A DNA stretch of 64,000 nucleotides, taken from an uncultured bacterium. Lineage in GTDB: Bacteria; Bacillota_I; Bacilli_A; RFN20; CAG-826. The notes below the pieces were generated by a model. The model did not search any database, was not told where the DNA came from, and saw only the letters and a list, made by a program, of their open reading frames with translations. The stretch's first letter is position 1, and each line of letters opens with the position of its first letter. Below, piece after piece: positions 1,167 through 18,411 of the stretch. The stretch spans positions 69,376-133,375 of the forward strand of contig CASDYC010000001.1 of the NCBI GenBank assembly GCA_949285665.1. Direction: 5' to 3'. A program made the translations under genes and the position numbers.

Positions 1167-2065
1167 TGGATAATCAAATTACTATTAGCAAGAAAAGAGA
1201 TAATTGGATTATAAGAACGCTTAAATCTATTGGCAATTTCTTTAAATTGGCTTGTAAAAATAAGAAAGCACTAGCTGGTTTTATAATAATGGCGTTTTTC
1301 TTATTTATGGTTATTGTTCTGGTATGGGTATTTCCATATGATCCAACGCCAGATCCATTAAATATTTTTGCTGCTCCAAGCGCAGAACATTGGTTTGGAA
1401 CTGATGAACTTGGAAGAGATTTGTTTAGAAGAATGATAGCTGGTAGTCCTAGCATTATATCAATCGCCTTTTTAACAGGTTTATTTACAGTTGTATTCGG
1501 TGTTGTTATTGGAATGGTTGCTGGATTAGTTGGCGGTATTGTTGATAGATTTTTAAATTTCTGTACTAATTTATTCTTAACAGTACCAAGCTTTCCAATA
1601 ATGCTTGCATTAGCTCAAATATTAACAATTACAGATACAACTTTATTTGCATTATTGTTAAGTATTTGGGGTTGGGCAGGCCTTGCAAGAGCAGTTAGAG
1701 CACAAGTTATTTCAATTAAAGAAAGAGATTATATTCAAATTTGTAAAGTTATGAATATGTCTAAAGCTCATATCATTTTCAAAGAATTAATGCCTAATAT
1801 AGCTTCATATATTATTGTCAATTTTATTATGATCATGAGAAACGCAATTACTTCAAGTGTTGGTATTATGATGTTAGGTGTTGTTGCATATGATCATACA
1901 AATTGGGGAGCAATGTTAAATAGTGCTCAAGCATATATTCAAAATCCTAATGCTATTATGTTTTGGCTAACTCCTGTAATGTTTATAGTTTTATTCCAAA
2001 CTGGCGTTATTTTACTAAGTAATGGCTTAGATGAGGTTTTAAATCCTAGATTGAGAGAATTTTAA
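1166..2065 (+). CDS. oppC: OppC/DppC-type ABC importer permease
   Basis: Second permease subunit, pairing with the preceding OppB to form the membrane channel. It has 299 residues, a cytoplasmic N-terminus, a first helix near residues 36-56, the characteristic OppC segment HWFGTDELGRDLFRRMIAG (about 76-94), and then five helices. The EAA loop lies around residues 185-215 (IKERDYIQICKVMNMSKAHI). The start ATG overlaps the oppB stop by one base and oppD follows two bases after the stop, which is the arrangement of a single operon. The length is normal for the family. The substrate cannot be read from the sequence. Confidence 0.94.
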   Translation: MDNQITISKKRDNWIIRTLKSIGNFFKLACKNKKALAGFIIMAFFLFMVIVLVWVFPYDPTPDPLNIFAAPSAEHWFGTDELGRDLFRRMIAGSPSIISIAFLTGLFTVVFGVVIGMVAGLVGGIVDRFLNFCTNLFLTVPSFPIMLALAQILTITDTTLFALLLSIWGWAGLARAVRAQVISIKERDYIQICKVMNMSKAHIIFKELMPNIASYIIVNFIMIMRNAITSSVGIMMLGVVAYDHTNWGAMLNSAQAYIQNPNAIMFWLTPVMFIVLFQTGVILLSNGLDEVLNPRLREF

Positions 2066-2067
2066 AT

Positions 2068-3090
2068 ATGAGTAAAAATATTATTGAATTTAAAGATTTA
2101 TCAATTGAATATGTTTTGAGCAAATATTCTTTAAGAGCTGTCAATAAAGTTTCTTTGAATTTAGTTGAAGGAAAGATTACCGCTTTAGTTGGTGAATCTG
2201 GTTCTGGAAAAACAACAATTGCCTCTTCAATGATTAATTGTATATCAAGTCCAGGAAAAATCGTCGAAGGTCAAGTGCTTTATTATGGAAATGATGAAGT
2301 AATTGATGTTGCAAAACTTAATGAAGATGAAATAAATAAATTTAGATGGAAAGAAATTTCAATGGTATTTCAAGGAGCACAAAGTTCTCTAAATCCGGTT
2401 ATCACAATTTTTAATCAATTTTATGAAACATTAACTGTTCATGAAAATTACAAACCAAAAAAAGAAAGAAGAAAAATAACAAAGCAAATGGCAAAAGAGC
2501 GAGTAAAATATTTACTCGAATTTGTTAATTTAGATGCCGAAAGAGTTATGAATTCATATCCGCATGAATTAAGTGGTGGAATGAAACAAAGAGTAATGAT
2601 TGCGTTTTCTTTATTATTAGATCCAAAAGTAATAATTTTAGATGAACCAACAACAGCATTAGATGTTATTACTCAAGATTTTATTTTTAAATTATTACAA
2701 AAAATTAACCGAGAAATGAATATTACAATGCTTTTATTAACTCATGATATAGCTGTTGTTGCAAAATATGCTGATTATATGGGTGTTATGTATGGCGGTG
2801 AATTAATGGAGTATGGAACGGTAGAAAGTGTTTTTAAAAATCGATATCATCCATATACCTCTGGATTAATTTCATCCACTCCATCATTAATAGCTGATAA
2901 TTCAAAATTAAGTCCAATTGATGGAATACCACCAAATTTATTAAATATGCCAACTGGATGCAGATTTCATCCTAGATGTAAAAAATGTATGGAAATTTGT
3001 CAAAGTAATGAACCAAGTGAGGTAATAAATAAAAACGGTCATATGGTTAGATGTTTTTTGTTTGATAAGGAGGAAAAAATAAATGAGTAA
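2068..3090 (+). CDS. oppD: OppD-type ABC importer ATPase
   Basis: Cytoplasmic ATP-binding subunit that powers the OppBC channel. The Walker A motif GESGSGKTT is near residues 42-50, the signature LSGGMKQR near 165-172 and Walker B ILDEPTTALD near 186-195; the switch histidine is in LLLTHD. The C-terminal oligopeptide-transporter domain ends in a cysteine cluster (CRFHPRCKKCMEIC, about 298-311). In some Opp/Dpp ATPases the equivalent cysteines bind an iron-sulfur cluster. The length (340) is typical. The 3' end overlaps oppF by 8 bp, and the oppF ribosome-binding site (AAGGAGG) lies inside this gene. Confidence 0.94.
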   Translation: MSKNIIEFKDLSIEYVLSKYSLRAVNKVSLNLVEGKITALVGESGSGKTTIASSMINCISSPGKIVEGQVLYYGNDEVIDVAKLNEDEINKFRWKEISMVFQGAQSSLNPVITIFNQFYETLTVHENYKPKKERRKITKQMAKERVKYLLEFVNLDAERVMNSYPHELSGGMKQRVMIAFSLLLDPKVIILDEPTTALDVITQDFIFKLLQKINREMNITMLLLTHDIAVVAKYADYMGVMYGGELMEYGTVESVFKNRYHPYTSGLISSTPSLIADNSKLSPIDGIPPNLLNMPTGCRFHPRCKKCMEICQSNEPSEVINKNGHMVRCFLFDKEEKINE

Positions 3091-4087
3091 AGAAATTATC
3101 AAATTAAAAAACATACAAATGGTTTTTAATAAAAAAGGTAAAATGTTTCATGAAGAAAAAAAGATTCATGTTTTAAAAGATGTCAATTTAGATATATATG
3201 AAGGAGAAATTATTGCAATTGTTGGCGAATCAGGATGCGGTAAAACAACGGTTGGTAAAATAATTACTGGTTTATTAAAACCAACAAGCGGTGAAATATT
3301 ATTTGAAGATCAAAATATTTATAAATTTGATATACGTAATTTTAATAAAACTAGAGAACTCGTTCAATTTGTTCAGCAAGATTCATATGCTGCGCTAAAT
3401 CCCGTTAGAACAATTTATCAATCCTTATCAGCTCCTATTTTACATCATTATAAGAAGATCTCGAGAGAAGAATTAGATGAAAAAATTAATAATTTAATGA
3501 ATATAGTTGGATTAACCCCTGCTGAACAATTTTTAAGTAAATATCCTCATATGTTATCAGGCGGACAACGACAAAGAATTTTAATGGCGAGAGCTATTTC
3601 TCTTGAACCAAAATTGATTGTTGCTGATGAACCTGTTTCAATGATTGATGTATCAATGAGATTATCAATTTTAAATTTAATGAGTGAATTAAATAAAAAA
3701 TTTAAAATTTCATTTATCTATATTACACATGATCTAGCAACTGCAAAATACATTGCTAAGAATGGTCGTATATGTGTTATGTATTTAGGTGAAATTGTAG
3801 AATTAGGAAATATTGATGATGTACTAAAAAATCCAAAACATCCTTATACAAAAGCTTTAATTGCCGCTGTTCCAATTCCAGATCCTAAAATTGCTAAAAA
3901 AGCAATTGATATTCCAATTAAAAGCATGGATATAACTGGATTAGAGCATAGAGGCGATGGCTGTCCATTTTATTTAAGATGCCCACATGCAAAAGATATT
4001 TGTAAAGAAAAAAATGAAGATATTATTATTGGAAATAGATTGGTAAAATGTTGTAGGTTGGAGGAAATTGATCGTGAAGGGAGTTAG
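3083..4087 (+). CDS. oppF: OppF-type ABC importer ATPase
   Basis: Second ATPase of the importer, forming a heterodimer with OppD. Walker A is GESGCGKTT (near residues 49-57), the signature is LSGGQRQR and Walker B is LIVADEPVSMID. The usual threonine/alanine stretch after Walker B is replaced by VSMIDVS, which is common in OppF. A cysteine-containing tail (CPFYLRCPHAKDIC) parallels that of OppD. The start ATG at 3083 follows a strong AAGGAGG at 3067-3073 and lies within the oppD coding sequence. The gene ends just after the start of the next small ORF, giving a 14-bp overlap with the GTG proposed at 4074. Confidence 0.94.
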   Translation: MSKEIIKLKNIQMVFNKKGKMFHEEKKIHVLKDVNLDIYEGEIIAIVGESGCGKTTVGKIITGLLKPTSGEILFEDQNIYKFDIRNFNKTRELVQFVQQDSYAALNPVRTIYQSLSAPILHHYKKISREELDEKINNLMNIVGLTPAEQFLSKYPHMLSGGQRQRILMARAISLEPKLIVADEPVSMIDVSMRLSILNLMSELNKKFKISFIYITHDLATAKYIAKNGRICVMYLGEIVELGNIDDVLKNPKHPYTKALIAAVPIPDPKIAKKAIDIPIKSMDITGLEHRGDGCPFYLRCPHAKDICKEKNEDIIIGNRLVKCCRLEEIDREGS

Positions 4088-4254: not shown

Positions 4255-6795
4255 ATGTTCTTTAAATTATTAGGACTTCTAGCGTGTTTATTTATGAGTA
4301 ATATTAATTCATCATCTAATCAAGATTTGTTTAATTTAAAAACACCTGAAACTTTTCAAAAAATTGATTTTGTTAAAGAAGCAAGTGCAGAATTAATTAC
4401 AAATAATTATGAAAGAGACGATGTTTTTGTAGCTGATATTATTTTAGATAAAGCTCATGGGTATGATATTGATAATACCGGTGTAAATTCAGCTACCCAA
4501 GTTATTCAAGAAGCAATTGATGAAATGTCATCAAGAGGCGGAGGAACTGTTTATTTACCAGCTGGAAAATATAGAATCACTTCAAGAATTGAAATTAAAC
4601 CTTATGTTAATTTAAGAGGTGATTATAGAAATCCAAATAATGTAAAAAATGGTGATTATGGAACAATAATTATAGCTGGAGTTTCTTCAAGCAATGATGA
4701 AGTTGGTCAAAATGTTAATCTATTTAGAATGGCGGGAAGTACTGGTTTAATCGGCTTTACATTCTTTTATCCAATGCAATATATGGATAATGTTGTTCCT
4801 TATGGATATGCAATAGAAATTCCAGGAGGAATAACTACTGATTATCATAATGTTTTTACAATTAAAGATGTCACTTTTTTAAATGCTTATAGAGGTATAT
4901 GTGCTTCAATTACTCCAAGCGGAATTACAAAGAGTGTTACCCATGAACAATTGCATTTAGAAAATATAAGAGGAACTATTTTAAGAGAAGGAATGCATTT
5001 AACAAATTCAAGCGAAGTTGGTGCATTTAACACAATTGATTTAAGTTCAAAATATTGGGCAAATGCAGGAGAAGAATTTAACGCTCCAAATAAACAAAAT
5101 ATTATTGATTTTACTTCAAAAAACAGTGTAGGTTTAATTCTTGGGGATTTAGAATGGCAAGAAATTGAAAATGTTAATATAGAAGATTATCAAACAGGAA
5201 TTTATTTCCATAATAAAACAAGAACCGTTGATTATGGAATGGCATTTATTGGATCATTATATAATTTAACAATTAGTGGCGCAGAATATGGTATTTATGT
5301 TGAAAATTTATATCCTAATTTAGGAATAGAATTTGCTAATTCAACAATAGAAGGATCTAAATATGCAGTAATTAATAATTCACCAGAAACAGAAGGACAT
5401 TTAAAATTAAGTGGTGTTACATTAAATGGAGCTGTTGGTGGCGTAAATGTTTATTATAATAATCAATTAAATGGTGAAATTAAAGGTGTGCAAACACCAA
5501 AATTAACATATAATTTACCAAAAATGGAATTATATAATGTATTATCTTATAATGCAGATAATACCGGTGAATACGATGCATCAAGTGGTATTCAACAAGC
5601 CTTAAATCAAGCACATAATAATGGTGGAGGAATTGTTTATTTACCTGCTGGTTTTTATAGGATTGAAAAACCATTAATAGTTTATGAAAATACACAATTA
5701 AGAGGTTGCACAAGTGCTATTCAAAAAGACTTACAAGGAAATTCACAAGGGACATTACTCTTAGCTTATTATGGTGCATTATCAAGAAATGAAAATGCTC
5801 CATTAATAACTTTAGATGGTGATAATTCTGGCGTAAGTTCATTGAGAGTAGTTTATCCAGAAATTAATCTTTTTAAAGAAGTTTTAAACCTTGATACTTT
5901 GCCAAAATATTCATATACAATAAAAGGCAATGGAGATGGAGTTTATGCTTTTAATCTTTATTTAACTGGTGTTTATAATGGAGTTGATTTTTCAAATTCT
6001 TGTAATGATTATTTAATTAGAAGAGTGATGGGAGTTTTCTATAATAATGGTTTCAAGTTAAGTGGGAATAATGGAGTAGTTGATACGTGTTTAAGCAATG
6101 GTATTGCAATTACAAAAGTAGGTTCACCTCAATTAGACGATTTTAAAGATTGGATTTTTTCAACTAATGATTTAGCAAATGTTTTAGCAACATTTGTTTA
6201 TCCATTAACAAGAGAATCAACACATTTTATTATTATGGAAAATGCAACAAATGCTAAAATACATAATTTATTCACATTTGCATCAAATTCATTAATTGAT
6301 GCAACAAATTCTGATTTTGAAGGATTAAATTTAGGATTAGATTCTCAACCAAATAACTCCGGGAATATGTTTAATTTAATTGATTCTAAAGCATATGTAT
6401 TTAATACATTAAGAGATGCTCTTGGAACTGAAGGTACATATTATACTTTAACTGGAGATTCAAGTTTGACTGTTTATAATAGAATTACTTTATTACCTAA
6501 TAATGCCTCGAAAAGTGAATCTAATTTAATAAATAATGAAAAACAAAATTTAGCTAAAATGACTGGTGATACAGAATATATTAAAAAAATCTGGGAAGAA
6601 AATATTAATTATGAATTTATTGACTATGATGATGTAAACAATCCAATAAATCCAGATAACCCAGATAACCCTGATAATCCAGATAATAAGCCTGATACCA
6701 CAAATAGTAACGCTATGTATATAGGCATTGGTATAGGTGTAGCAGTTATTGTTATTGCTTTAATTATAATATTTGTCATTAAATTTAGGAGGTAA
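4255..6795 (+). CDS. Membrane-anchored tandem beta-helix protein (pectate-lyase-3 / GH55-like)
   Basis: An 846-residue surface protein. Residues 1-20 form a hydrophobic export signal. Two homologous halves each begin with the Pectate_lyase_3 signature: GGGTVYLPAGKYRI (about residues 97-110) followed by NLRGDY, and GGGIVYLPAGFYRI (about 458-471) followed by QLRGC. Each continues into asparagine/glycine-rich beta-helix coils. Two consecutive helices of this type are the architecture of GH55 exo-beta-1,3-glucanases, and single ones occur in pectate lyases and GH91 inulin lyases, so a glycan-cleaving or glycan-binding role is likely but the substrate is open. A PDN-repeat linker (about 800-811) leads to a C-terminal helix and a KFRR stop-transfer, anchoring the protein in the membrane. 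AAGGAG at 4242-4247 supports the start. Confidence 0.8.
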   Translation: MFFKLLGLLACLFMSNINSSSNQDLFNLKTPETFQKIDFVKEASAELITNNYERDDVFVADIILDKAHGYDIDNTGVNSATQVIQEAIDEMSSRGGGTVYLPAGKYRITSRIEIKPYVNLRGDYRNPNNVKNGDYGTIIIAGVSSSNDEVGQNVNLFRMAGSTGLIGFTFFYPMQYMDNVVPYGYAIEIPGGITTDYHNVFTIKDVTFLNAYRGICASITPSGITKSVTHEQLHLENIRGTILREGMHLTNSSEVGAFNTIDLSSKYWANAGEEFNAPNKQNIIDFTSKNSVGLILGDLEWQEIENVNIEDYQTGIYFHNKTRTVDYGMAFIGSLYNLTISGAEYGIYVENLYPNLGIEFANSTIEGSKYAVINNSPETEGHLKLSGVTLNGAVGGVNVYYNNQLNGEIKGVQTPKLTYNLPKMELYNVLSYNADNTGEYDASSGIQQALNQAHNNGGGIVYLPAGFYRIEKPLIVYENTQLRGCTSAIQKDLQGNSQGTLLLAYYGALSRNENAPLITLDGDNSGVSSLRVVYPEINLFKEVLNLDTLPKYSYTIKGNGDGVYAFNLYLTGVYNGVDFSNSCNDYLIRRVMGVFYNNGFKLSGNNGVVDTCLSNGIAITKVGSPQLDDFKDWIFSTNDLANVLATFVYPLTRESTHFIIMENATNAKIHNLFTFASNSLIDATNSDFEGLNLGLDSQPNNSGNMFNLIDSKAYVFNTLRDALGTEGTYYTLTGDSSLTVYNRITLLPNNASKSESNLINNEKQNLAKMTGDTEYIKKIWEENINYEFIDYDDVNNPINPDNPDNPDNPDNKPDTTNSNAMYIGIGIGVAVIVIALIIIFVIKFRR
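6652..6687 (+). repeat. Four 9-bp repeats encoding a Pro-Asp-Asn linker
   Basis: The coding sequence of the beta-helix protein contains four consecutive 9-base units of the form CC(A/T)GATAA(C/T), each encoding Pro-Asp-Asn. They lie between the folded region and the C-terminal membrane helix, where they act as a rigid, polar spacer. Such short coding repeats can change copy number by slippage. Confidence 0.85.
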
Positions 6796-6801
6796 TTTTA
6801 A

Positions 6802-8361
6802 ATGGAAAACAAAAAGTTTACAGTTTTATTGACAACGTTATCACTTCTTTTGATTACATCTTGTGAGAATAACACGATACCAACAAGTGAATTTGTTCCA
6901 GTAACTGATATTAGTATAAAAGGAACTGGATATGATGAAGGTGAAGTTTTATACATTGAAAGAGGAAATACTGTAACATTAGCAGGCAGTGTTGTTCCAA
7001 GTTATGCAACCGATAGAGTTATAACTTATGAAAGTGATAATTATGATATACCTGTTGAAAATATTGGAAATAATCAATGTGTTATAACTGCTTATAATTT
7101 AGGAGAAGCAACAATTAAAGCAACAGTTGGTACTTTTACAAAAGAAATAGATGTTGAATGTATTGACAAAATTTTGCCTACTTCAATCGAAGTTGAAACA
7201 AATACAATTGATTTACAAGTAACTCAAAGAGCTGAATTAAATTTTGAAATTTTGCCTGCCAATGCTTCAAATAAAAGAATTTCCACAACAATAATTCCAG
7301 TTGGAGATTCAGAACCTGACAAAATTAAAATTATTGAAGAAAACAGTAAATATTATGTTCAAAATGATGGAGGCGGAGATCCAGGTGATTCATATGAAAT
7401 TACAATCAGATCTGTTGCAGCTCCAACTGTTAGTGCAAAAGTAACAGTTAATCTTGTTGATTATCCCGTTGAATCAATGAAATTCCAAAATGAAAATGTC
7501 ACAATTTCATTAAAAGATCCTGTTTATAAAATGCTTCCAACATTTAAACCAGATGGAACAAGTCAATATTATGCTACTTTTGAAAGCGATAATCCTGATA
7601 TTTGTGATATAGATGATGTAGGAAGATTAATTCCAAAGAAGGTTGGAAAGGCAACTGTTAGAGCTATAAATATTGATAATCCTGAAGTATCTTGTGAAAC
7701 AACAGTTACTGTCACAAATGAAGAAACCGAATATTTATTTAGAGGTTTAAAAAAGAGTGATGTAACAAATTTAGAAGTTGAAAATTACACTTACATGGAT
7801 TTTGAATTTGATAAGACTGCATTTTCTGCTTGGAGTGAAAATAGATGGTTTTCTGAAGACACAAACCTTCAATCTTCTCATATTTCTGATGCAGGATGGG
7901 CGATTTGGTTAGTTGGATTTGATACATATGATGACGATAATTATGTTGATGGGGCAGAAACAAATGTATTAATTTATTGTAAATTACATGTTCCAGAAAA
8001 TGCGACTGAAATGCAATATATTTTTAGATCTCATCAAACTTCAAATGATTATGCAAAATTTAGAATTAAAGCTGTTGATGAAGAATTAAATGTTTATGAT
8101 ATGACAGATAGTTGGATAACATTCCATAGAGCAGATGATATGTGGTACAACATTGAAGTTACTAAATTCCAAGGTCAAGATATTACATTTGTATTAGAAC
8201 AAGATCAAATGGGAATTAAAAAAGAATTAGAAACTGATAAAGTTGGTGTTTCATTAATGTTTAGAAGATGTTTATTTAATACACCAGAAAATGAAGAATT
8301 GTGGAATACTTCAATTGACTATTCTATTATTGAACAAAATAAACAAGAGGGAGTTTTATGA
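6802..8361 (+). CDS. Ig-like (Big_2) surface lipoprotein
   Basis: A 519-residue lipoprotein. Its signal ends in the lipobox LITSC, giving a lipidated Cys at about residue 21. At least three bacterial Ig-like repeats of the Big_2 type follow (roughly residues 33-120, 125-220 and 225-310), with phrases such as VTDISIKG...TVTLAGSVVP and GRLIPKKVGKATVRA. The last ~200 residues form a beta-rich module, from EYLFRGL to the end, with a KFRIKAV...DSWITF core. Similar modules recur twice in the lipoprotein at 9780-12041. No catalytic motif is visible. Export, the adhesive Ig-like repeats and the operon context suggest glycan binding at the cell surface, by inference. AGGAGG precedes the start, and the TGA stop overlaps the GH32 ATG by four bases. 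Confidence 0.85.
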   Translation: MENKKFTVLLTTLSLLLITSCENNTIPTSEFVPVTDISIKGTGYDEGEVLYIERGNTVTLAGSVVPSYATDRVITYESDNYDIPVENIGNNQCVITAYNLGEATIKATVGTFTKEIDVECIDKILPTSIEVETNTIDLQVTQRAELNFEILPANASNKRISTTIIPVGDSEPDKIKIIEENSKYYVQNDGGGDPGDSYEITIRSVAAPTVSAKVTVNLVDYPVESMKFQNENVTISLKDPVYKMLPTFKPDGTSQYYATFESDNPDICDIDDVGRLIPKKVGKATVRAINIDNPEVSCETTVTVTNEETEYLFRGLKKSDVTNLEVENYTYMDFEFDKTAFSAWSENRWFSEDTNLQSSHISDAGWAIWLVGFDTYDDDNYVDGAETNVLIYCKLHVPENATEMQYIFRSHQTSNDYAKFRIKAVDEELNVYDMTDSWITFHRADDMWYNIEVTKFQGQDITFVLEQDQMGIKKELETDKVGVSLMFRRCLFNTPENEELWNTSIDYSIIEQNKQEGVL

Positions 8362-9776
8362 CAAAATTATTTTATAAACCAGAAAATTTTTGGGCAGCCG
8401 ATCCTATTCCTTATTATGAAAATGGTGTATTTCATATCTTTTATTTATTAGATTATCGAAACCAAGAAAAGTATGGTGAAGGTACACCTTGGTTTAAAGT
8501 TACAACAAAAGATTTCATACATTTTGAAGATCATGGTGAAATGCTTAAAAGAGGAACAAGTAAAGAATATGACATGTATGTTTTTACAGGTTCCGTCATT
8601 AAGTATAAAAATAAATATCATATATTTTATACTGGCCATAATACTAAAATGGATCCAGGTAATTATTTACAAGCAATAATGCATGCTGTTTCTGATGATT
8701 TAGAACATTGGGAAAAAATAAAAGAGGATACTTTTGTTGCATTAAATGATGAATATGAAATTAGAGATTGGAGAGACCCATATGTATTTTTTGATGATAA
8801 AGATCAATGTTTTTATATGTTGTTATCAACAAGAAAAAAATCTAATGATATTCAAAGAAGAGGTACAACAGCATTGTTAAAAAGTACTGATTTGAGTAAA
8901 TGGGAATTACTTGATCCAATTTATGAACCACATTTATATTATGCTCATGAATGTCCAGATTTCTTTAAAATTGGAAAATGGTATTATCAAGTGTTTTCTG
9001 AATTTTCTTATTATAATGTAACTAGATATGTAATGTCAAAATCAATATATGGTCCTTGGACAAAACCAAAAGATGATAGATTTGATGGAAGAGCATTTTA
9101 TGCTGCTAAAACTGTAACAGATGGAAAAAATAGATATATTATTGGATGGAACCCCACAAAACAAGGCTTAAAAGATAAAGGACTTTGGGAGTGGGGTGGC
9201 AATTTAGTCGCTCATCAAATATATCAAAGAAAAGATGGAACATTAGCATGTAAAATGATTGATGGTTTAGATTTAATATTTAAAAAAAATAGAGAAGTTA
9301 AATTTCATAAATATAATCAAAAAGAAATTATTGATACTAATAATATTTCCAGTATTGGGAAATTAATTAGTTTAGTGTCAAAAGATCAATATTCAGATAG
9401 TTTTGAATATTGTGTCAAATTTAAATTTAAAAAAAATACTTCTAGAATAGGCATTTTATTGAATGTTTGTGAAGATTCAGATAACTCATATGGATTCTTC
9501 TTTGAACCAAAAAATAATAGAGTTATTTTTGAAAAATTCCCAAATTTTCCACAACATTCTATGAATGCAATTTTAGTTGAAAGACCAATAAAATTGACAG
9601 CCGGCAAAGAAATTAAAGTCAAAATTATTGTTCAAGATACAATTGCAGTCTGTTATGTTAATGATGAAATTGCCTTAAATACTAGAATGTATGATTTTAG
9701 AACACATAAAGTCGGCTTAGTAGTTGACGATGGTGTTGCATCATTTAAAGAAATAGTAGTTAAAGAAGAGGAGTAA
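8358..9776 (+). CDS. GH32-family glycoside hydrolase (fructosidase-type), cytoplasmic
   Basis: A 472-residue glycosidase of the five-bladed beta-propeller GH32 type, a family that hydrolyses fructosides such as sucrose, inulin or levan oligomers. The three catalytic positions are visible: the nucleophile Asp15 in WAADP (the family's WMNDP box), the transition-state stabiliser Asp140 in WRDP, and the acid/base Glu198 in HEC. A C-terminal beta-sandwich occupies about residues 320-472. There is no signal peptide, so it should act on imported oligosaccharides. The ATG at 8358 overlaps the previous stop (ATGA), consistent with translational coupling. The nucleophile box lacks the Met-Asn and the following Asn-Gly of classical invertases, so fructan specificity is not assured. 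Confidence 0.85.
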   Translation: MTKLFYKPENFWAADPIPYYENGVFHIFYLLDYRNQEKYGEGTPWFKVTTKDFIHFEDHGEMLKRGTSKEYDMYVFTGSVIKYKNKYHIFYTGHNTKMDPGNYLQAIMHAVSDDLEHWEKIKEDTFVALNDEYEIRDWRDPYVFFDDKDQCFYMLLSTRKKSNDIQRRGTTALLKSTDLSKWELLDPIYEPHLYYAHECPDFFKIGKWYYQVFSEFSYYNVTRYVMSKSIYGPWTKPKDDRFDGRAFYAAKTVTDGKNRYIIGWNPTKQGLKDKGLWEWGGNLVAHQIYQRKDGTLACKMIDGLDLIFKKNREVKFHKYNQKEIIDTNNISSIGKLISLVSKDQYSDSFEYCVKFKFKKNTSRIGILLNVCEDSDNSYGFFFEPKNNRVIFEKFPNFPQHSMNAILVERPIKLTAGKEIKVKIIVQDTIAVCYVNDEIALNTRMYDFRTHKVGLVVDDGVASFKEIVVKEEE

Positions 9777-9779
9777 TTA

Positions 9780-12041
9780 ATGATGAAAAAAACTAGAACA
9801 ATTTTCATGTGTTGTACTGCATTATTATTACTTTTAACATCATGTGATAATACAGCAGATGTTACTGGAAGTAGTAATACAGCAACTACAACAACTGAAA
9901 CTGGTCCTTCTTTTGAAGTTAACGGAAATTTAGGTGTTGAGGTTGAAAAGACTGCACAAATTAATGTAACGAATTTAGTTGGACTAGTTGCATCCGATTT
10001 TAAATATGAATCATATAATACAGATATTGCAACTGTAAATAATACAGGTTTAGTTACTGGTATTGAAGAAGGACAAACACAAATTTTAATTAGTGCAAAA
10101 TCTTTAAGAAAAACTGTCAATATAACTGTTACTGATTCAAATAAATTAAATGGTTTAGTTAGTTATCGAAAATTAAAAAGAATAGTTGGTTTTAATGGTG
10201 ATGATTCAAGCTATGATTATACAGGTGCTCCAATTATGAATATAGCTTGGGATCAAGGAACTTATGAAGCAACCGAGAAAAAATTTGATTTTGCTGATTT
10301 AGCAAGTGATGACACTCTAATTTTAAGAGGTGCTCATGTTGAAGATACAGCATCTATAGATAATGGTGATTACGTTATTGTAATGTCTAATGGTGGTGAT
10401 TCTTCCTTAACAAGCGAAAATATAACAAATGATGTACAAACAATGGTTTATGCAAAAGTTGAAGTATCTCAATATGCAAATCAATTTAGATTATGGGGTT
10501 GGTCAACAAAAAGTGATTTAGAAGCTTCTCCAGCATCTGGTTATGGTAAGTTCAGAATAATGGCTTATGAATTTGATGAAAATTATACAAGTTATACATC
10601 TAATTATTTAAAAGCTACTGATATTGGAACTTTAACACAAGATGAAAATGGTTGGATTACTTTTGATGAAGTAAGTGACGCAACAAATGGGACAATTGCT
10701 GGCGCCCCAGCTGATAATATGTTTGTTTTCCAAGTCGAAAACGATAATTATAATATTAAAGGTAAAGAAATTATTTTATCAATTGAGACTGCAAATTATC
10801 CAAATACCGTTGGTGCTGATGGTACAAATGTTGCTAACAGATTTGGAATTAAGAGAATGGGTTTTGGTTGTGATCCAAAACCAGATTTCAATATAACAAG
10901 CGAAACAGAATTATCATTATATTCTAATCAAACTTCTCAAATTGATGTTTCTGGCGTTGGTTTAGCAACAGAAGGTAACTTCTTTTATGATTCATCAGAT
11001 GATAACGTTGCCACAGTTTCTGAAACAGGATTAATTACAGCACAAGTAGTTGATGAAAACAAAGATGCAACAATCACAATTACAAATGATAAAGCAGATG
11101 GTATTTCTAAAACAGTATTAGTTCATGTTTTACCAATTCCTGATGAATATTTTGAAGTTGTTGAAAATATAAATTTAAAAGTTGGAGACAGCTACCAAAT
11201 TGTTCCAACAAACGTAAATGGTGACAAAACATTTGTTTACTCGAGTGGGTCTGAGTATATTGCTAGTGTTGATCAAGAAGGTAATGTAAAAGCATTAAAT
11301 GTTGGTCAAGTTGAAATCACAGTAACTTTCGGAGCATTAGTTAAAAAAGTAGTAGTTAATATAAATGAAACAAATCAACTAAAAGGAATTGATAATGAAA
11401 CATTAAAACAAGTTGCTTCATTTGGAACTACTGGAGGTTTTCCAGCCGCTTGGGATTTTGCATGGAGTGGAGGAGTCACAGCTGATAAGATTGATTCAAC
11501 TAATTCTAATTTATCTTCACCATTAATTAGATTTTCAAAGACATCTTCAGGTAGTGATTCTCAAGTAAACGTATTGCCAAATGATATTCAAGTAATTTCT
11601 GGTATTGGCGGAGTTAGAGATAATGATGTTGTAAGTCAAGTATATGTCAAAACTAATATTGCAGAAACTGCCGGAACATTTAGATTATGGACTTATGCTG
11701 GAGATCCAACAGCAGATCCAAATATCGGGGACTCGTTATTAACAAGAGTTGTAGTTTATATTCCAAATGAAAATTATACTTCTTATGAAGCTCATGTTTT
11801 AAAATTAACAGATGCTGTTGGGGGAAGTGGAGATAACGCTAGAACAATTAATACAGTTAGTAATGATAATGTCACAGGAATAGTTGGAGTCCATGATACA
11901 TGGGCAGATGGTTTCTTAGTATTTGCTGTTCCTGAAGAATTAAAAGGATTAACAAATGCATTAGTTGTAATTGAATCTTATTCAGTAAATAATGAAAAAC
12001 AAACAAGACAACAGATCAGAAGATTTGGATTTGATGCATAA
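9780..12041 (+). CDS. Large Ig-like (Big_2) surface lipoprotein with two repeated beta-rich modules
   Basis: A 753-residue lipoprotein with lipobox LLTSC (lipidated Cys near residue 22) and a Ser/Thr-rich spacer. The order is: Ig-like repeat 1 (about 40-115), module A (about 120-365, ending KRMGFGCD), Ig-like repeats 2 and 3 (about 368-450 and 455-530), and module B (about 535-753, ending IRRFGFDA). Modules A and B share FRLW, ENYTSY, LK.TD and a terminal R.FGFD-like strand. A related module ends the lipoprotein at 6802-8361. No known enzyme motif is seen. The likely role is glycan capture or presentation to the Opp importer. GAGGAG at 9768-9773 serves the ATG at 9780, with a second ATG three bases on. 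This is the last gene before the operon terminator. Confidence 0.85.
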   Translation: MMKKTRTIFMCCTALLLLLTSCDNTADVTGSSNTATTTTETGPSFEVNGNLGVEVEKTAQINVTNLVGLVASDFKYESYNTDIATVNNTGLVTGIEEGQTQILISAKSLRKTVNITVTDSNKLNGLVSYRKLKRIVGFNGDDSSYDYTGAPIMNIAWDQGTYEATEKKFDFADLASDDTLILRGAHVEDTASIDNGDYVIVMSNGGDSSLTSENITNDVQTMVYAKVEVSQYANQFRLWGWSTKSDLEASPASGYGKFRIMAYEFDENYTSYTSNYLKATDIGTLTQDENGWITFDEVSDATNGTIAGAPADNMFVFQVENDNYNIKGKEIILSIETANYPNTVGADGTNVANRFGIKRMGFGCDPKPDFNITSETELSLYSNQTSQIDVSGVGLATEGNFFYDSSDDNVATVSETGLITAQVVDENKDATITITNDKADGISKTVLVHVLPIPDEYFEVVENINLKVGDSYQIVPTNVNGDKTFVYSSGSEYIASVDQEGNVKALNVGQVEITVTFGALVKKVVVNINETNQLKGIDNETLKQVASFGTTGGFPAAWDFAWSGGVTADKIDSTNSNLSSPLIRFSKTSSGSDSQVNVLPNDIQVISGIGGVRDNDVVSQVYVKTNIAETAGTFRLWTYAGDPTADPNIGDSLLTRVVVYIPNENYTSYEAHVLKLTDAVGGSGDNARTINTVSNDNVTGIVGVHDTWADGFLVFAVPEELKGLTNALVVIESYSVNNEKQTRQQIRRFGFDA

Positions 12042-12127: not shown

Positions 12128-14860
12128 TTATTGTATTAATAAATTTAGCATTTCTCCATGACTAAATTCATATTTGTCATTGTTTATTTTTTCAATTATA
12201 TTTCCAAAAATATCACACTTAGAAATCTCTTTATTTTTAAATACTTGTTTTAAATTTAAAGTTACATTATAAAAATTAGGATTGTACAAACGAATAAATA
12301 ATGATTTGTTTTTTGTTAAATAAATATTAGAAATGACTAAATCATTGATATTTAAATTTGTTGAATTTTTAAAAGGAATTTTTCCTTTATTATTTTTTAA
12401 TGTAACAACAAAAGGCTCATAATATAATGATTTTACTAGCAATATTTTATTAGATATATTGGATTTATCTATGTTTATAGCAAATGAAAAATATCTTTTT
12501 CCAATTTCAGAATATGGATGAGGATCATATGTACCTCTTAATAATGTAAGATATAAATTTTCTCCATCATATCTAAATCCATGTTTGGCTTTTCCAATAA
12601 GCATAACATCTTTTACAGTAATAAAAGATTGATATGGCACATCTTGATTTTTAATTTCAAATTTTGAAGCACCCATAGCAATATCACCGCAAGAAAAATC
12701 ATCTTGTTCTAGTAAGGGCAATTTAAATCTGATTGTTGGCACACCTTTATTTAATGAAGAATAAATAAAGAAATCACAATCACAATCAAAATGAAGTACT
12801 TTTGAATTTTTAAATAATGAAATTTTAACGTCTAAATTAATTTTATCGTTATAATTCAAATTCATTATGAAAGAGTTTAAGTTAGAATTCTTTATGATTG
12901 AATCTTTTTTAATAGAATTAAATTGATGCAAATCTATTTCTTTTTTTATTCTTCCATAGTACCAAGATGTCATTTGAAAATAATCATCTTCGTAAATTAA
13001 TTGAAGTTCTGTAGGATTTTTTAAATATTCTTTGTTGTATTCTTTATCAAAAATTGAAATAAGTTTCAATGATTCAAAATCAAAAGTATATCTAATTAAA
13101 TCATTTTCTAAAACTATATTTTTGATTTCGTCTTCAGTTCTTTGAAATAACGGAGGATATGTAATTTCTTCCACTTTATTTTCCTTTTGTTTTAAAATTA
13201 TGCAATCAAACCCAAATTTATCAATATTGACATTGACTAAAATTTCATGATTATAATGTTGCCAATAAAAATTTGAATCTTTTGAAACAATATAAAAATC
13301 AAGTTTCTTATTATTTGAATCAAAAATCTCAATGTTGTTTATGTCAAAATTATAATCCCAAACTTGTATTTTGATATATTTGTTTAAATTAATTTGTTGT
13401 GTATTTATAATCAAATATGCTCTAGTTTTACCATATGCTAATTGCTGAGAGAAATTTAAATTTTTTGAATTAAATCCAGAACCTGCTCCTATTGAAGTAT
13501 CATCAACTATTACTTCATTATTATTAAAAAAGGTTGAAGTATCAATGTTATTTCTAAGATAATTTAATTCTAAATTTATTAAACATCCAAATTCAGCAAA
13601 AGATTTTTGATATTCACCTAAGGCATAATTTTTTGTTTCATTAACGCCACTTCCAGGTAAAATATCATGAAATTGATTAAATAATAATCTATTCAATGGT
13701 TTATTATATAAGTTTTTATTTAATGATTTATTTGTTAAATAATATAATGAATTCAAATTAAAAAATGTTTCTTGACCTTTGAAATTTTTATCTTTAATTT
13801 CTGACATAGAAGAATAACAACCCGTAAAAATTTTAGATTGATTTCCATAAATATCAGGCAAATTTTTGCAATTTTTTTCAAGTAATTCGAAAAACTCTTT
13901 AAATGTTCCAAATTTAATATTTGGCATTATAGGGAATTTTGAAATTTCAATAATTTTTTCAATGTCTTTTACACTGGCACCACCTCCATGGTCGCCAATA
14001 CCATAAACTTTCAGCATATAATCTGTTTTATATTTTCTAGAGAAATCAATTGCAAAATTAAATGTATCATATTTAATGCTATCTAAATACCAAAATGGTT
14101 CACGATAAACTAATACTGATTTTCCACTTGGAGAATGCCATCTATAAATTGGCATTAAATCATTTCCTCTGCAATGATAGAAATATTTAATGCCTGCTTG
14201 AGCTAATATTTCAGGAATTTCTTCAGTATGGCCGAATGTATCAGGTTTAAAATCAATACAAAAATAATCTTTAGGTAAATTAAATAAATTTGATAAATAA
14301 TTTTTGGCTTGAATTATTTGTTGAACTTGGAGTTCCCCGTTTGATAAATTTTTATCTTCTTCAACATAAGTAGAAGCAGTTGAAATATCAAATCTTCCTT
14401 GTTTTACATATTTTTTAACCTTTTTTAATAAATCGGGTCGATATTTTTTAAGAACTTCATATTCAAAAGCTTGACTTTGAGCAAATGTAAAAGTAGGATA
14501 CTTTTCTAATAAATAAAGCATAGTTTCAATTGTACTTGTTATAACATTTACTGTTTCATCAAAACCCCAACACCAATTTAAATCTGTATGAGCGTGAGCT
14601 ACACAGATAACAGTTTGTTTTTTTGCAATAGGTTCTAATCGCAATAATATTTTTTCACAATTTTGAGCTACTTTTTTAGAAATAAATTTAGTTTTAGAAT
14701 AATTTTTATTTAAATAATTAATGGCTGTTTCGATTATATTAGTAAATTTATTTTCGTAATATTTGTTTAATTGTAATGCGTATTTAATTTGAATAATTAT
14801 TCTTTTTTGAAAAGGCAAATTTTGAGTCTTTTCAATTTCTTTTAAAAAATCTAAATCCAT
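12128..14860 (-). CDS. GH38 alpha-mannosidase
   Basis: A 910-residue alpha-mannosidase that releases mannose from alpha-mannosides. The metal-binding HAHTD box is at residues 89-93, and the nucleophile is Asp207 in FKPDTFGH (the GH38 D-x-F-G-H signature). Further GH38 landmarks are GDHGGG, FHDILPGSGV in the helical bundle, and the long C-terminal beta domains. The length is normal for the bacterial clade (about 850-1050). There is no signal peptide, so it acts on imported substrates. It is co-oriented with the LacI regulator (TAATG junction), so both are probably one transcript, divergent from the PfkB operon. The start ATG has a GGAG 8-11 bases upstream. Confidence 0.93.
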   Translation of the reverse strand: MDLDFLKEIEKTQNLPFQKRIIIQIKYALQLNKYYENKFTNIIETAINYLNKNYSKTKFISKKVAQNCEKILLRLEPIAKKQTVICVAHAHTDLNWCWGFDETVNVITSTIETMLYLLEKYPTFTFAQSQAFEYEVLKKYRPDLLKKVKKYVKQGRFDISTASTYVEEDKNLSNGELQVQQIIQAKNYLSNLFNLPKDYFCIDFKPDTFGHTEEIPEILAQAGIKYFYHCRGNDLMPIYRWHSPSGKSVLVYREPFWYLDSIKYDTFNFAIDFSRKYKTDYMLKVYGIGDHGGGASVKDIEKIIEISKFPIMPNIKFGTFKEFFELLEKNCKNLPDIYGNQSKIFTGCYSSMSEIKDKNFKGQETFFNLNSLYYLTNKSLNKNLYNKPLNRLLFNQFHDILPGSGVNETKNYALGEYQKSFAEFGCLINLELNYLRNNIDTSTFFNNNEVIVDDTSIGAGSGFNSKNLNFSQQLAYGKTRAYLIINTQQINLNKYIKIQVWDYNFDINNIEIFDSNNKKLDFYIVSKDSNFYWQHYNHEILVNVNIDKFGFDCIILKQKENKVEEITYPPLFQRTEDEIKNIVLENDLIRYTFDFESLKLISIFDKEYNKEYLKNPTELQLIYEDDYFQMTSWYYGRIKKEIDLHQFNSIKKDSIIKNSNLNSFIMNLNYNDKINLDVKISLFKNSKVLHFDCDCDFFIYSSLNKGVPTIRFKLPLLEQDDFSCGDIAMGASKFEIKNQDVPYQSFITVKDVMLIGKAKHGFRYDGENLYLTLLRGTYDPHPYSEIGKRYFSFAINIDKSNISNKILLVKSLYYEPFVVTLKNNKGKIPFKNSTNLNINDLVISNIYLTKNKSLFIRLYNPNFYNVTLNLKQVFKNKEISKCDIFGNIIEKINNDKYEFSHGEMLNLLIQ

Positions 14861-15840
14861 TATTTTATCTCCTTGGTGGAATTTCTATTTATGAAAAGTG
14901 GGGTAAGTGTTATTTTTTTAACTATATTATTTTTCTTGTTTGTATCATGATTTAATATAAGTTCTACTACATTATCAATTAAATCATTCATTGGTTGTTT
15001 AATAACGCTATAAGAAGAAAGTTTTGCCCAATATGAATCGTCGTAAGATATTAAAGAAATATCTTTTGGAATTTCTAAATTTAATTCTTGTAAGACTAAA
15101 CAAGTTTGTTGTGATAAATCTTCTGTGACACTAATTATTGCAGTCGGATTTGTTTCTTTAATTTTCGCTCTTATTAAATCAACATATATTTCTGAATTTT
15201 CTAATGATAATATATAATTTTCATCAAAAGGTATATCATTCTTTTTGAATGCATCTTTGTAACCTGAATATCTTTTTGCAAAAACGTTATTATTTCTATC
15301 TATTAATAAAATTCTTTTATGTCCTAATTTTATTAGTTTATCAGTTGCAATTTCCGTACCTAATTCATCATCAATAATAACAGAGTCAAAATCTGGAAAA
15401 TTATCAGTAAAAAGTTGTAAAAAATATGAATTGTTAGAATTTGATAATGTTGATAAAGTGTGTGATTTTTTCTCAAGCGTAAATAATATGGACGATGCCC
15501 TAAAAGATAATAGTGTTTTTATTTGATCCTTAACCTCTTCACGATCCTCTGCGTAAAAAACAAGAAGTTGTTTTTTATATTTTTTTAATACTTTTGTCAA
15601 TTTTTCAACAAATTTAGCAAAAAATGAATTGGATAAACTTGGTAAAACTAAACCAATTAAATTAGTTGTTTGACTTTTTAAAAAACTAGCACTTAAATTT
15701 GGTGTATATCCAAGCTCAGTGATAGCCCGTTTTATTTTTAGAGCCTTCTTTTCACTAACCATGGAAGAGTCTCTAATATATCGAGAAACAGTCGAAGGAC
15801 TTACATTCGCTTTTTTTGCAACATCTTTTACAGTGGCCAT
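14860..15840 (-). CDS. LacI-family transcriptional repressor
   Basis: A 326-residue sugar-responsive repressor. The N-terminal helix-turn-helix (TVKDVAKKANVSPSTVSRYI, residues 3-22) and hinge helix region (LGYTPNLSASFLKSQ) are typical. The rest is a periplasmic-binding-protein-like effector domain with the usual GLVLPSLSNSFFAK and IDDELG segments. It is encoded between the mannosidase and the divergent PfkB operon, and two LacI-type palindromes (15899-15910 and 15971-15984) lie in its upstream region. It probably represses both units and its own gene. The effector is unknown; mannose or a phosphorylated intermediate is a reasonable guess. GGAG lies just upstream of the ATG. Confidence 0.93.
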   Translation of the reverse strand: MATVKDVAKKANVSPSTVSRYIRDSSMVSEKKALKIKRAITELGYTPNLSASFLKSQTTNLIGLVLPSLSNSFFAKFVEKLTKVLKKYKKQLLVFYAEDREEVKDQIKTLLSFRASSILFTLEKKSHTLSTLSNSNNSYFLQLFTDNFPDFDSVIIDDELGTEIATDKLIKLGHKRILLIDRNNNVFAKRYSGYKDAFKKNDIPFDENYILSLENSEIYVDLIRAKIKETNPTAIISVTEDLSQQTCLVLQELNLEIPKDISLISYDDSYWAKLSSYSVIKQPMNDLIDNVVELILNHDTNKKNNIVKKITLTPLFINRNSTKEIK

Positions 15841-15995: not shown

Positions 15996-17021
15996 ATGAA
16001 GACTAAGAAAATATATATAATTGGAAATGCTATTGTTGATAAAATTAAAACAATAAATTCATATCCTGAAGAAGGGATGCTTGTTAACATAAATACTATT
16101 AATGATTCGATTGGTGGTTGTTTATGTAATACATCAATTGATTTAAAAAAATTAGATGAAAATATTGAAGTTTTTGCTTTTGGAAAAATCGGAAAAGATA
16201 ATGAAGGTAAATTTATTTTAGAAAAACTTAATTTAGCTAATGTAGATACAACAAATATTGTTATTGATTACAAAAATTACACTGGTTTTACCGATGTTAT
16301 GACAAACAAAAATGGAAATAGAACGTTCTTTCATTATAAAGGTACTAACAAAACATTTTCTCCTAGTGACATTAATTTAAATGAATTTAAAACACCTTGT
16401 CATGTTCATTTGGGTTATTTAATGTTGTTGGATGCTTTTGATTCTTATGAAAGCGAATATGGAACAGAAATGGCAAAGTTTTTACATTATTTAAAGAGCA
16501 ATGGTTTTACAGTATCGCTTGATTTAGTAAGTGAAAATTCTAGTAGATTTAAAGATGTAGTTTTGCCTTCATTAAAATATTGTGATTATTTAATTATAAA
16601 TGAAATTGAATCTAGCATGATTACAGATATTAAAGTTAGAGATGATAATAAAAATTTAATTTTAAGTAATTTAAAGAATATTTGTTTAAAAATTTCAACT
16701 TTAGGTAACTTTAAAAAAATTATTATTCATTGTCCTGAACTTGGTATTGTTTATTCAAATGGAGAGTTTACAATTGTTGGCTCATTAATTCTTCCAGAAA
16801 ATTATATTAAAGGAAGTGTTGGAGCAGGTGATGCATTTTGTGCAGGATGCTTATATGGAATATTAAATAACTTAAATAATAAAGAAATACTAGAAGTTGC
16901 TTCGTGTTCGGCAGCAAATAATTTAGCTAGTTATGATTCAATTAGTAATGCCAAAAATATTAAAGAAGTTATTAAATTAAATAATTTATATAGAAGGAGA
17001 AATTTTGATGAAAAGAAGTGA
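15996..17021 (+). CDS. PfkB-family sugar kinase
   Basis: A 341-residue ribokinase-fold kinase that phosphorylates a sugar or sugar phosphate with ATP. The N-terminal GNAIVDKI and GG(C)LCNTSIDL segments and the C-terminal GSVGAGDAFCAGCLYG box, with the catalytic Asp in GAGD, identify the family. The start is the ATG at 15996, preceded by AAAGGA; the longer frame to 15924 would run through the operator and is rejected. The 3' end overlaps the isomerase gene by 14 bp. Next to an isomerase that makes a ketose and a class II aldolase, it most likely phosphorylates that ketose (fructose or xylulose). Family membership alone does not tell which carbon is phosphorylated. Confidence 0.9.
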   Translation: MKTKKIYIIGNAIVDKIKTINSYPEEGMLVNINTINDSIGGCLCNTSIDLKKLDENIEVFAFGKIGKDNEGKFILEKLNLANVDTTNIVIDYKNYTGFTDVMTNKNGNRTFFHYKGTNKTFSPSDINLNEFKTPCHVHLGYLMLLDAFDSYESEYGTEMAKFLHYLKSNGFTVSLDLVSENSSRFKDVVLPSLKYCDYLIINEIESSMITDIKVRDDNKNLILSNLKNICLKISTLGNFKKIIIHCPELGIVYSNGEFTIVGSLILPENYIKGSVGAGDAFCAGCLYGILNNLNNKEILEVASCSAANNLASYDSISNAKNIKEVIKLNNLYRRRNFDEKK

Positions 17022-17559
17022 AATCTTAAAATACCAAAAGATGGCTGCTGACTTTATTTGTGAAAATGGTATTGTTTTAACAAATAAAGAAAAAGAAAAT
17101 TTAGAAGTAGCAGATTTCGGTTTAAATGATATTAAAAATATTGGTTTACAAATTGTGACTTATATTAATACAAATAAAGTTTGTGCCAAAGAAATGGTTT
17201 TATTTCCATTCCAAACTTGTCCAGAACACGTTCATAAAGATGGATTTGAAAACGGTCAATATTATGAAGGAAAGGAAGAAACTTTTAGAGTTAGAAAAGG
17301 ATCTTGTTATTTATATGTTGAAGGTAGTGGTAATAAAGAAAATATAAAAGCAAAATTACCAAATACAACTGTAACAGTATTTCATGAAATTATATTGGAT
17401 GAAGGTGAACAATATACAATTTTTCCAAATACAAAACATTGGTTTCAAGCTGGAAAACAAGGAGCTATAATTTCTGAATTTTCCACAAAAAGTCGTGATG
17501 AAAGCGATGTATTTACAGATACAAGAATAAAAAGAATTCCAGAAATAGAAGAGGATTAA
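17008..17559 (+). CDS. D-lyxose ketol-isomerase family (lyxose/mannose isomerase)
   Basis: A 183-residue cupin-fold isomerase of the D-lyxose isomerase family. Members interconvert D-lyxose and D-xylulose, and many also interconvert D-mannose and D-fructose. The metal-binding pattern is visible: two histidines in CPEHVHKD, a glutamate in EGKEETFRVRKG, and a histidine in NTKHWFQAG. AAGGAGA at 16994-17000 supports the ATG at 17008 over the TTG at 17005. It lies inside the PfkB operon, overlapping the kinase by 14 bp and preceding the aldolase by 3 bp. With a divergent alpha-mannosidase, mannose to fructose is the attractive substrate assignment, by inference. Confidence 0.88.
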   Translation: MKRSEILKYQKMAADFICENGIVLTNKEKENLEVADFGLNDIKNIGLQIVTYINTNKVCAKEMVLFPFQTCPEHVHKDGFENGQYYEGKEETFRVRKGSCYLYVEGSGNKENIKAKLPNTTVTVFHEIILDEGEQYTIFPNTKHWFQAGKQGAIISEFSTKSRDESDVFTDTRIKRIPEIEED

Positions 17560-17562
17560 ATT

Positions 17563-18411
17563 ATGTTAGTTAATTTAAAAGAAATATTAAAATATGCAGA
17601 AGATAATAAATGCGCAGTAGGAATGTTTAATGCGACAGGATTTGATTCACTACAAGCGATTATTAAAGCAGCAGAAAAATTAAATCAACCTGTAATTTTA
17701 GCTCATGCTGAAGTTCATAATGTTTATAATGATATTTCATTAGTTGCCCCTGTTATGTTAAGTTTAGCAAAAAATTCTAAAGTTCCAGTATGTGTTCATT
17801 TAGATCACGGAACAACTTTAGAAATGATAAAAAGAGCAATAAATTTAGGTTTTACTTCAATTATGATTGATGCTTCAAGTTTACCATTTGAAGAAAATAT
17901 TAAATTTACAAAACAAGTTGTTGATATGTGTCATCCTAAAAATATAAGTGTTGAAGGGGAAATTGGACAATTAATTACATCTGAAAATGGTGCTAGTAAA
18001 AAACTAAAATCAAAAGAATATTATTATACAAAACCAAATGAAGCTAAAGAATTTGTAGAAAAAACAAGTGTTGATGCCTTAGCAATTGCTTTTGGGACAG
18101 CTCATGGTTTTTATAAAGAAAAACCTTTATTAGATGTAAATGTAATTAAAAATGTTAGAAAACTTGTAAATGTTCCATTAGTTATGCATGGAGGAAGTGG
18201 TTTAAGTAAAAAACAGTTCCAAGATTGTATTAAAGCTGGAATTAGAAAAATAAATTATTATTCTTATATGTCAAAAGCAGGTTATGAAGCGGCGAAAAAA
18301 TTAATTGAATCAAATAAAACTAGTTACTTACATGATGTAGAATTTGAAGCAATGAAAGCAATGGAAAAAAATGTTGAAGAAGCAATTAAAATATTTTCTA
18401 TGAAGGATTAA
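17563..18411 (+). CDS. Class II ketose-(bis)phosphate aldolase
   Basis: A 282-residue zinc-dependent aldolase of the FbaA/GatY/KbaY family. The Zn and active-site motifs are all present: VHLDHG (about residues 82-87), EGEIGQL, FGTAHG (Zn His) and VMHGGSG (Zn His), plus the phosphate-binding region near KINYYSY. It cleaves a phosphorylated ketose to dihydroxyacetone phosphate and an aldehyde. The family contains fructose- and tagatose-bisphosphate enzymes and some ketose-1-phosphate enzymes. The operon position after an isomerase and a kinase suggests it finishes that short pathway. It could also serve as the cell's general fructose-bisphosphate aldolase; no other copy is in this window. Confidence 0.9.
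   Translation: MLVNLKEILKYAEDNKCAVGMFNATGFDSLQAIIKAAEKLNQPVILAHAEVHNVYNDISLVAPVMLSLAKNSKVPVCVHLDHGTTLEMIKRAINLGFTSIMIDASSLPFEENIKFTKQVVDMCHPKNISVEGEIGQLITSENGASKKLKSKEYYYTKPNEAKEFVEKTSVDALAIAFGTAHGFYKEKPLLDVNVIKNVRKLVNVPLVMHGGSGLSKKQFQDCIKAGIRKINYYSYMSKAGYEAAKKLIESNKTSYLHDVEFEAMKAMEKNVEEAIKIFSMKD

Follow-up and report, generated by a model that had tools for sequence, protein, structure and literature searches.

What do two lipoproteins do beside a bacterial importer when each carries a module that belongs to no named family? The question is raised by a stretch of 64,000 nucleotides (the window; contig CASDYC010000001.1 of assembly GCA_949285665.1) from an uncultured bacterium whose assembled genome comprises 1,030,441 bases in 6 contigs. 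Here lipoprotein A (519 amino acids (aa); 6802..8361) and lipoprotein B (753 aa; 9780..12041), both open reading frames (ORFs) on the plus strand, hold one and two copies of a module that the original prediction had described as beta-rich, unrecognised and suggestive of binding in concert with the importer. We find that the modules constitute a genuine, unnamed and narrow sequence family with a known type of fold, as far as models predict it, and that A and B are probably surface glycan-binding lipoproteins serving the importer.

Anatomy of the lipoproteins and searches for a named family

Read by eye, the start of both A and B is hydrophobic and holds a lipobox cysteine (ITS-C21 in A, LTS-C22 in B), and the same holds by eye for those relatives whose start was seen. 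With the bounds adjusted here, module A spans residues 308-497 (7723..8292; set by profile comparison and model), leaving the last 22 residues of A outside. B is ordered Big_2, module B1 (residues 121-368; 10140..10883, the better modelled part lying at about 10440-10859), Big_2, Big_2, module B2 (residues 531-753; 11370..12038, assigned by homology to B1), with all of these features on the plus strand. Every module is preceded by a Big_2-type domain, as had been claimed: at 9936..10127 before B1 (E 1.8e-9), at 11202..11354 before B2 (E 1.1e-9) and, as a Big_2-like domain below the Pfam cut-off, at 7468..7695 directly before module A (E 0.0023). Further Big_2 domains lie at 6949..7140 in A (Pfam E 5.3e-6) and between B1 and B2 at 10896..11117 (E 6.4e-6).

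Big_2 (PF02368) bacterial immunoglobulin (Ig)-like domains thus stand as a stalk before each module, and none of the 11 module sequences scanned against Pfam matched Big_2 itself. Pfam and NCBIfam scans of the whole of A and B matched only Big_2-type regions, the leader or stretches at chance level, and PDB sequence searches gave chance-level matches only (best E 0.04 for B and 0.082 for A). Additionally, a profile of 11 module rows matched no PDB chain at E≤10. Among the PHROGs, the Ig-type regions were matched, as was, weakly, phrog_10059 (E 0.0038; A residues 241-365, overlapping the start of module A). Of the viral contigs, 24 stretches fit a pattern and none of these encodes a relative of the module; the plasmids gave no module match. 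The module was not recognised in the literature searched, which is weak evidence of absence for something nameless. The claim that no named family covers the module is therefore borne out, since by sequence nothing in Pfam, NCBIfam or the PDB matched it better than chance. "Unrecognised" applies to the sequence family and not to the fold, which is a well-described one.

Relatedness of the three copies

Homology between B1 and B2 is beyond doubt from sequence comparison. The two align in BLASTP with 29% identity over 150 residues (E 8e-10), their profiles align in hhalign with a probability of 98.4% (E 5.7e-15), and a B2 profile scores 56.8 bits on the B1 of the window, against a maximum of 5.6 in 999 shuffles.

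Module A is related to B1 and B2 only remotely, and the support for this in sequence is weak, appearing only when a distant relative from another genome (G076) is included. BLASTP gave E 0.07 for B1 against A; whole A against whole B gave E 0.007, with an aligned stretch that takes in Ig-like sequence. A search of the genome itself with B1 at E≤10 recovered B1 and B2 and did not recover A. Profiles of three rows aligned in hhalign at 35% (A with B1) and 1% (A with B2), and four three-row tests between A and B did not rise above shuffles, the best real score being reached by 2, 5, 12 and 26 of 999 shuffles. With the G076 sequences added to each side, hhalign aligned A with B at 96% (E 3.5e-9). 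The A profile so extended scored 21.5 bits on the B1 of the window and 12.4 on the B-like protein of G076 (shuffle maximum 10.9, 994 shuffles), the other five of the seven B rows falling below that maximum. In the reverse direction a B profile scored 8.6 bits on A, a score reached by 2 of 1,000 shuffles and so not clearly above them.

The predicted strands tell a similar story, in that the last eight strands of the A model (82-89, 96-102, 110-118, 124-126, 132-134, 140-145, 153-161 and 176-186) match strands of B1 in order (99-108, 113-121, 136-145, 152-156 with 159-161, 173-175 with 178-180, 194-198, 210-218 and 230-244), B1 having two extra short ones; the matching was made by eye on the aligned sequences. 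Thus, the proposal of one module in three copies stands firmly for B1 and B2 and in a weakened form for A. The short motifs from which it was drawn are present in the sequences, as listed, but the list understates how distant the A copy is.

Predicted fold

AlphaFold2 models were made of B1 and A only, the fold of B2 following from its hhalign homology to B1. The B1 model has a mean predicted local distance difference test score (pLDDT) of 61.2 and a predicted template modelling score (pTM) of 0.65, with block means of 53-54 over residues 81-100 and 61-94 over residues 101-240; for A the values are 57.3 and 0.59. The N-terminal parts of both models are unreliable. The two models share their strand order, and both resemble the beta-sandwich of carbohydrate-binding modules (CBMs), which agrees with the description of the module as beta-rich. 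We conclude that the common fold is predicted to be a galactose-binding-like beta-sandwich, which is often, although not always, a sugar binder.

For B1, the first Foldseek match was an archaeal cannula protein; many legume lectins were also returned, together with 2c26 (described as a CBM; probability 0.97) and 2wys (the N-terminal region of xylanase Xyn10B; 0.95). The highest VIA-align row for B1 was CBM28 (Z 8.5, root-mean-square deviation (rmsd) 3.5, 155 residues aligned), followed by CBM11 (Z 8.4, 3.4, 136) and an alginate CBM (Z 8.4, 3.5, 143), in ties with several others, while CBM6, CBM22, CBM4, CBM27 and CBM15 scored Z 7.8 to 7.2. A fold missed by Foldseek cannot show in these VIA-align lists. 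For A, the best VIA-align match was a stretch of xanthanase (Z 12.4, rmsd 3.4, 131 aligned), followed by reelin, Elapor1, agarase and MAM domains, with CBM29 at Z 10.7 (rank 10) and CBM36 at 10.6. By title, 26 of the best 50 rows for A are CBMs, ten of them being entries of one protein, CBM29.

Rarity of the module and a divergent fourth copy

The module is rare. Searching 94 genomes, including its own, with whole B gave two full-length relatives, in G052 (40% identity) and G035 (38%), the other matches being short and mostly covering Big_2 regions or the leader. Module A was found in 3 of 144 genomes, namely its own, G052 and G035. A profile of nine modules found 4 carriers among the 279 genomes of the order and so added G076, a member of another family; a B1 profile independent of A also recovers the G076 protein (E 2.7e-12 among 609 ORFs of the compared loci). 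Wider profile searches found only the genome itself (1 of 395 in the class and 1 of 392 in the phylum). As both searches sampled larger groups evenly and reported none of the three other known carriers, they mean rare rather than absent.

A divergent fourth copy suggests that the family is broader than strict searching shows. It lies at residues 303-500 of an 881-residue Big_2 lipoprotein on contig 4 of the same genome (G000:C4, L083:4797-7442, minus strand; profile search E 0.0096). These residues, picked after the match, score 15.2 bits against a maximum of 6.9 in 1,000 shuffles. A profile of A sequences only gives 13.3 bits (shuffle maximum 7.6), and one of B1 sequences only gives 3.3 bits, reached by 9 of 1,000 shuffles. 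Two further repeated domains of this protein, 33% identical to each other (E 1e-16), do not match the module. Its gene adjoins an importer, which we take to be of the CUT1 type, with a SBP_bac_8/SBP_bac_1 binding protein and two GxGYxYP putative glycoside hydrolases.

Association with the importer locus

The locus opens with a SBP_bac_5 binding protein just upstream of the window (G000:C1:67541-69442) and an Opp/Dpp-type ATP-binding cassette (ABC) importer of two permeases and two ATPases (96..4087, plus strand), named from sequence and gene order. A PF12708 (pectate-lyase-like) protein with hydrophobic segments at both ends, as seen by eye, follows at 4255..6795 (plus). Between A and B lies a GH32-like enzyme (8358..9776, plus; E 7e-56 to the structure of the endo-levanase BT1760), and after B come, by domain scan, a GH38 alpha-mannosidase family protein (12128..14860, minus), a PfkB sugar kinase (15996..17021, plus), a D-lyxose isomerase family protein (17005..17559, plus) and a protein of the class II fructose-bisphosphate aldolase family (17563..18411, plus). 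The catalytic residues of GH32, Asp, Asp (RDP) and Glu (EC), are all kept in the enzyme, in which D15, D140 and E198 align with Asp41, Asp169 and Glu221, the catalytic residues of BT1760 according to PMC6560043. By eye, no signal peptide was seen in three GH32 orthologs, so cleavage of fructosides is likely to be intracellular.

The modules keep a fixed place in this importer locus across four genomes, in line with the earlier view that repetition within an operon hints at a binding role alongside the importer. The window with its upstream flank, G035 and G052 share the order binding protein, two permeases, two ATPases, PF12708 protein, A, GH32, B, with the G052 locus split over two contig ends. 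G076 has genes of the same kinds in another arrangement: kinase, isomerase, aldolase, a B-like protein with one module, an A-like protein, binding protein, permeases, ATPases, PF12708 protein, regulator, a GH43-like protein (below the Pfam cut-off), GH38 and GH32. The three other carriers all have the PF12708 protein, GH38, PfkB and an isomerase-type protein (a weak match in G052: 29%, E 8e-10), and two of the three have the aldolase.

As a control on this association we took the binding protein as marker (E≤1e-120), which 7 of the 395 class genomes possess, including the genome itself, and compared 21-35 kb around it in the other six (G011, G013, G541, G595, G043 and G420). All six keep the importer and five have GH32 matches, G043 being the exception; at E≤1e-5 none of these stretches holds A, B, the PF12708 protein, GH38, the isomerase or the aldolase, and G043 shows a weak PfkB match. 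Searches of the whole genomes of G011 and G043 gave no match to the module or to PF12708. Within these few genomes, then, the modules go together with PF12708 and GH38 and not with GH32.

The importers of the control genomes (L068-L079) sit with one or more GH32-like enzymes (none matched in G043) and with lipoproteins other than A and B.

A search of the order with the PF12708 protein matched 6 of 273 genomes at E≤1e-10, the four best being the four module carriers. The proteins of the other two, G064 (E 2.5e-69) and G014 (E 1.8e-57), are longer than those of the carriers, and the compared stretches hold no module (best domain score 7.3 bits with the A6 profile, in G014, E 0.05). PF12708 alone was accordingly rejected as a predictor of the module. 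In G014 a GH38-type protein (22% identical to that of the window, E 6e-34) adjoins the PF12708 protein related to that of the window (L093:6805-9321 and L093:9316-13050), a second link between PF12708 and GH38; neither the binding protein nor the permeases nor the modules find a match in that stretch.

Probable glycan capture and its alternatives

Their anatomy (lipid anchor, Ig stalk and predicted sandwich modules), together with the locus, leads us to consider glycan capture the probable role of A and B. A lipid anchor and Big_2 stalk domains would raise both proteins off the membrane, where one (A) or two (B) galactose-binding-like sandwiches would act as CBMs. The modules probably hold a polymer or oligosaccharide for trimming by the PF12708 protein at the surface, the trimmed glycan would be taken up by the Opp-type binding protein and importer, cytoplasmic GH32 and GH38 would split it, and the isomerase, kinase and aldolase would pass the sugars into glycolysis. 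We infer sugar binding by the modules, their cooperation with the importer and the cellular location of the enzymes.

Alpha-mannosides are the substrates of GH38 enzymes, and D-lyxose isomerases convert mannose and fructose into each other. As the modules co-occur with PF12708 and GH38 rather than with GH32, a mannoside is pointed to; the ligand is probably mannose-containing, with alpha-linked mannose most likely, perhaps together with fructose. A more far-reaching proposal we advance only tentatively: that the modules are a new CBM family for such an alpha-mannose-containing (perhaps mannose-fructose) glycan, and that A and B form a dedicated multi-site capture layer before an Opp-type importer, the counterpart, in a lineage with genomes of about 1 Mb, of surface glycan binding in Bacteroides, reused with other importers of the same cell.

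Galactose-binding-like sandwich CBMs (CBM29, CBM36, CBM35, CBM4, CBM11, CBM22 and CBM28) resemble the modules in predicted fold, and known CBMs are likewise modular, repeated and placed beside sugar enzymes and an importer. Unlike them, the modules match no Pfam CBM family (Pfam's curated CBM families, rather than the CBM profiles of CAZy, being the basis of comparison) and no PDB sequence, and they sit in lipoproteins without a recognised catalytic domain.

Several observations weigh against glycan capture or against a mannoside as its target. When the 11 module sequences were compared with Pfam at E≤10, four families were hit by one member each (best E 0.081), and none is a CBM. The models are weak, with pLDDT below 50 at residues 1-79 and 246-248 of B1 and at residues 1-52, 58-60, 67-80 and 164-170 of A. 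Foldseek gave no match at E≤1e-3 for B1 and just two for A, a Bacillus immune inhibitor A2 peptidase and CBM22. The best Z for B1, 8.5, falls where common arrangements occur and is borderline, and the nine highest VIA-align rows for A are not titled CBM. Both lists contain many domains that are not known to bind sugars: for B1 these are Eph receptors, MAM, meprin and Cry proteins, and for A they are reelin, Elapor1, MAM and meprin. The four carriers belong to one order and represent few independent events, absence from the control genomes rests mostly on the compared stretches, so that genes elsewhere could be missed, and the gene between A and B, a GH32 like BT1760, speaks for a fructan over a mannoside.

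Eph receptor, MAM, meprin and reelin domains bind proteins, and their presence in the fold lists, in the case of A even ahead of the first row titled CBM, raises the alternative that the partners of the modules are proteins (the solute-binding protein, the PF12708 protein or one another) and that the modules serve as scaffolds of a surface assembly, which would also suit the co-occurrence of modules and locus genes. We regard this as unlikely, given that CBMs come first for B1 and make up, by title, about half of the best rows for A. Additionally, a similar lipoprotein beside an unrelated importer fits general handling of glycans better than one fixed partner.

Binding of beta-2,6-fructan (levan), with A and B as counterparts of the levan surface glycan-binding protein (SGBP) of Bacteroides, is suggested by the GH32 between them, whose closest match among PDB chains is the endo-levanase BT1760 and whose catalytic triad is kept. 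This seems improbable to us, as in five of the six control genomes the compared stretch holds the importer and GH32 and lacks modules, G076 has modules and no match at E≤1e-5 to this particular GH32 in its compared stretch (another GH32 is present), and the enzyme shows no signal peptide. Levan as the sole substrate was marked down on the first two of these grounds. The Bacteroides thetaiotaomicron protein BT1761 (SGBPlev) also differs in kind: its levan-binding domain is ThuA-like, according to PMC7618045, against the beta-sandwich predicted here, and it works with SusCD, in contrast to an Opp-type ABC transporter. Neither SusC nor SusD was seen among the locus genes, though no search was aimed at them, and SBP_bac_5 and Opp-type ABC genes are found instead. 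With a lipobox (by eye), a Big_2 stalk and, in the C-terminal module, a candidate binding domain, A and B may be SGBP-like, and the likeness to the Bacteroides proteins would be one of function. With an ABC transporter as importer and a different fold predicted for the modules, we do not place A and B among the SGBPs of SusCD loci.

That the modules are general adhesins or parts of the cell envelope, incidentally placed, would fit a lineage in which Big_2-like proteins are common (43 of 94 genomes match B at E≤0.001, nearly all over short stretches), but it is very improbable, since four genomes from two families largely agree in copy number and neighbours and the carriers are those with the closest PF12708 proteins.

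A limited literature search turned up no account of glycan capture at the surface of bacteria of this kind, and a family of binding modules tied to one locus offers a concrete and testable question of substrate. Annotators could thereby name a class of lipoprotein for which libraries offer nothing beyond Big_2. Should the modules bind nothing, the locus would show how easily a CBM fold misleads.

Remaining features of the locus

Between the GH38 and PfkB genes lies a LacI-type regulator (14860..15840, minus strand; named from sequence), and the aldolase is followed by a DUF4432 protein (18416..19321, plus; domain scan). A mechanical listing of ORFs also gives a 155-residue antisense ORF at 9653-10120 on the minus strand, within the region of GH32 and B.

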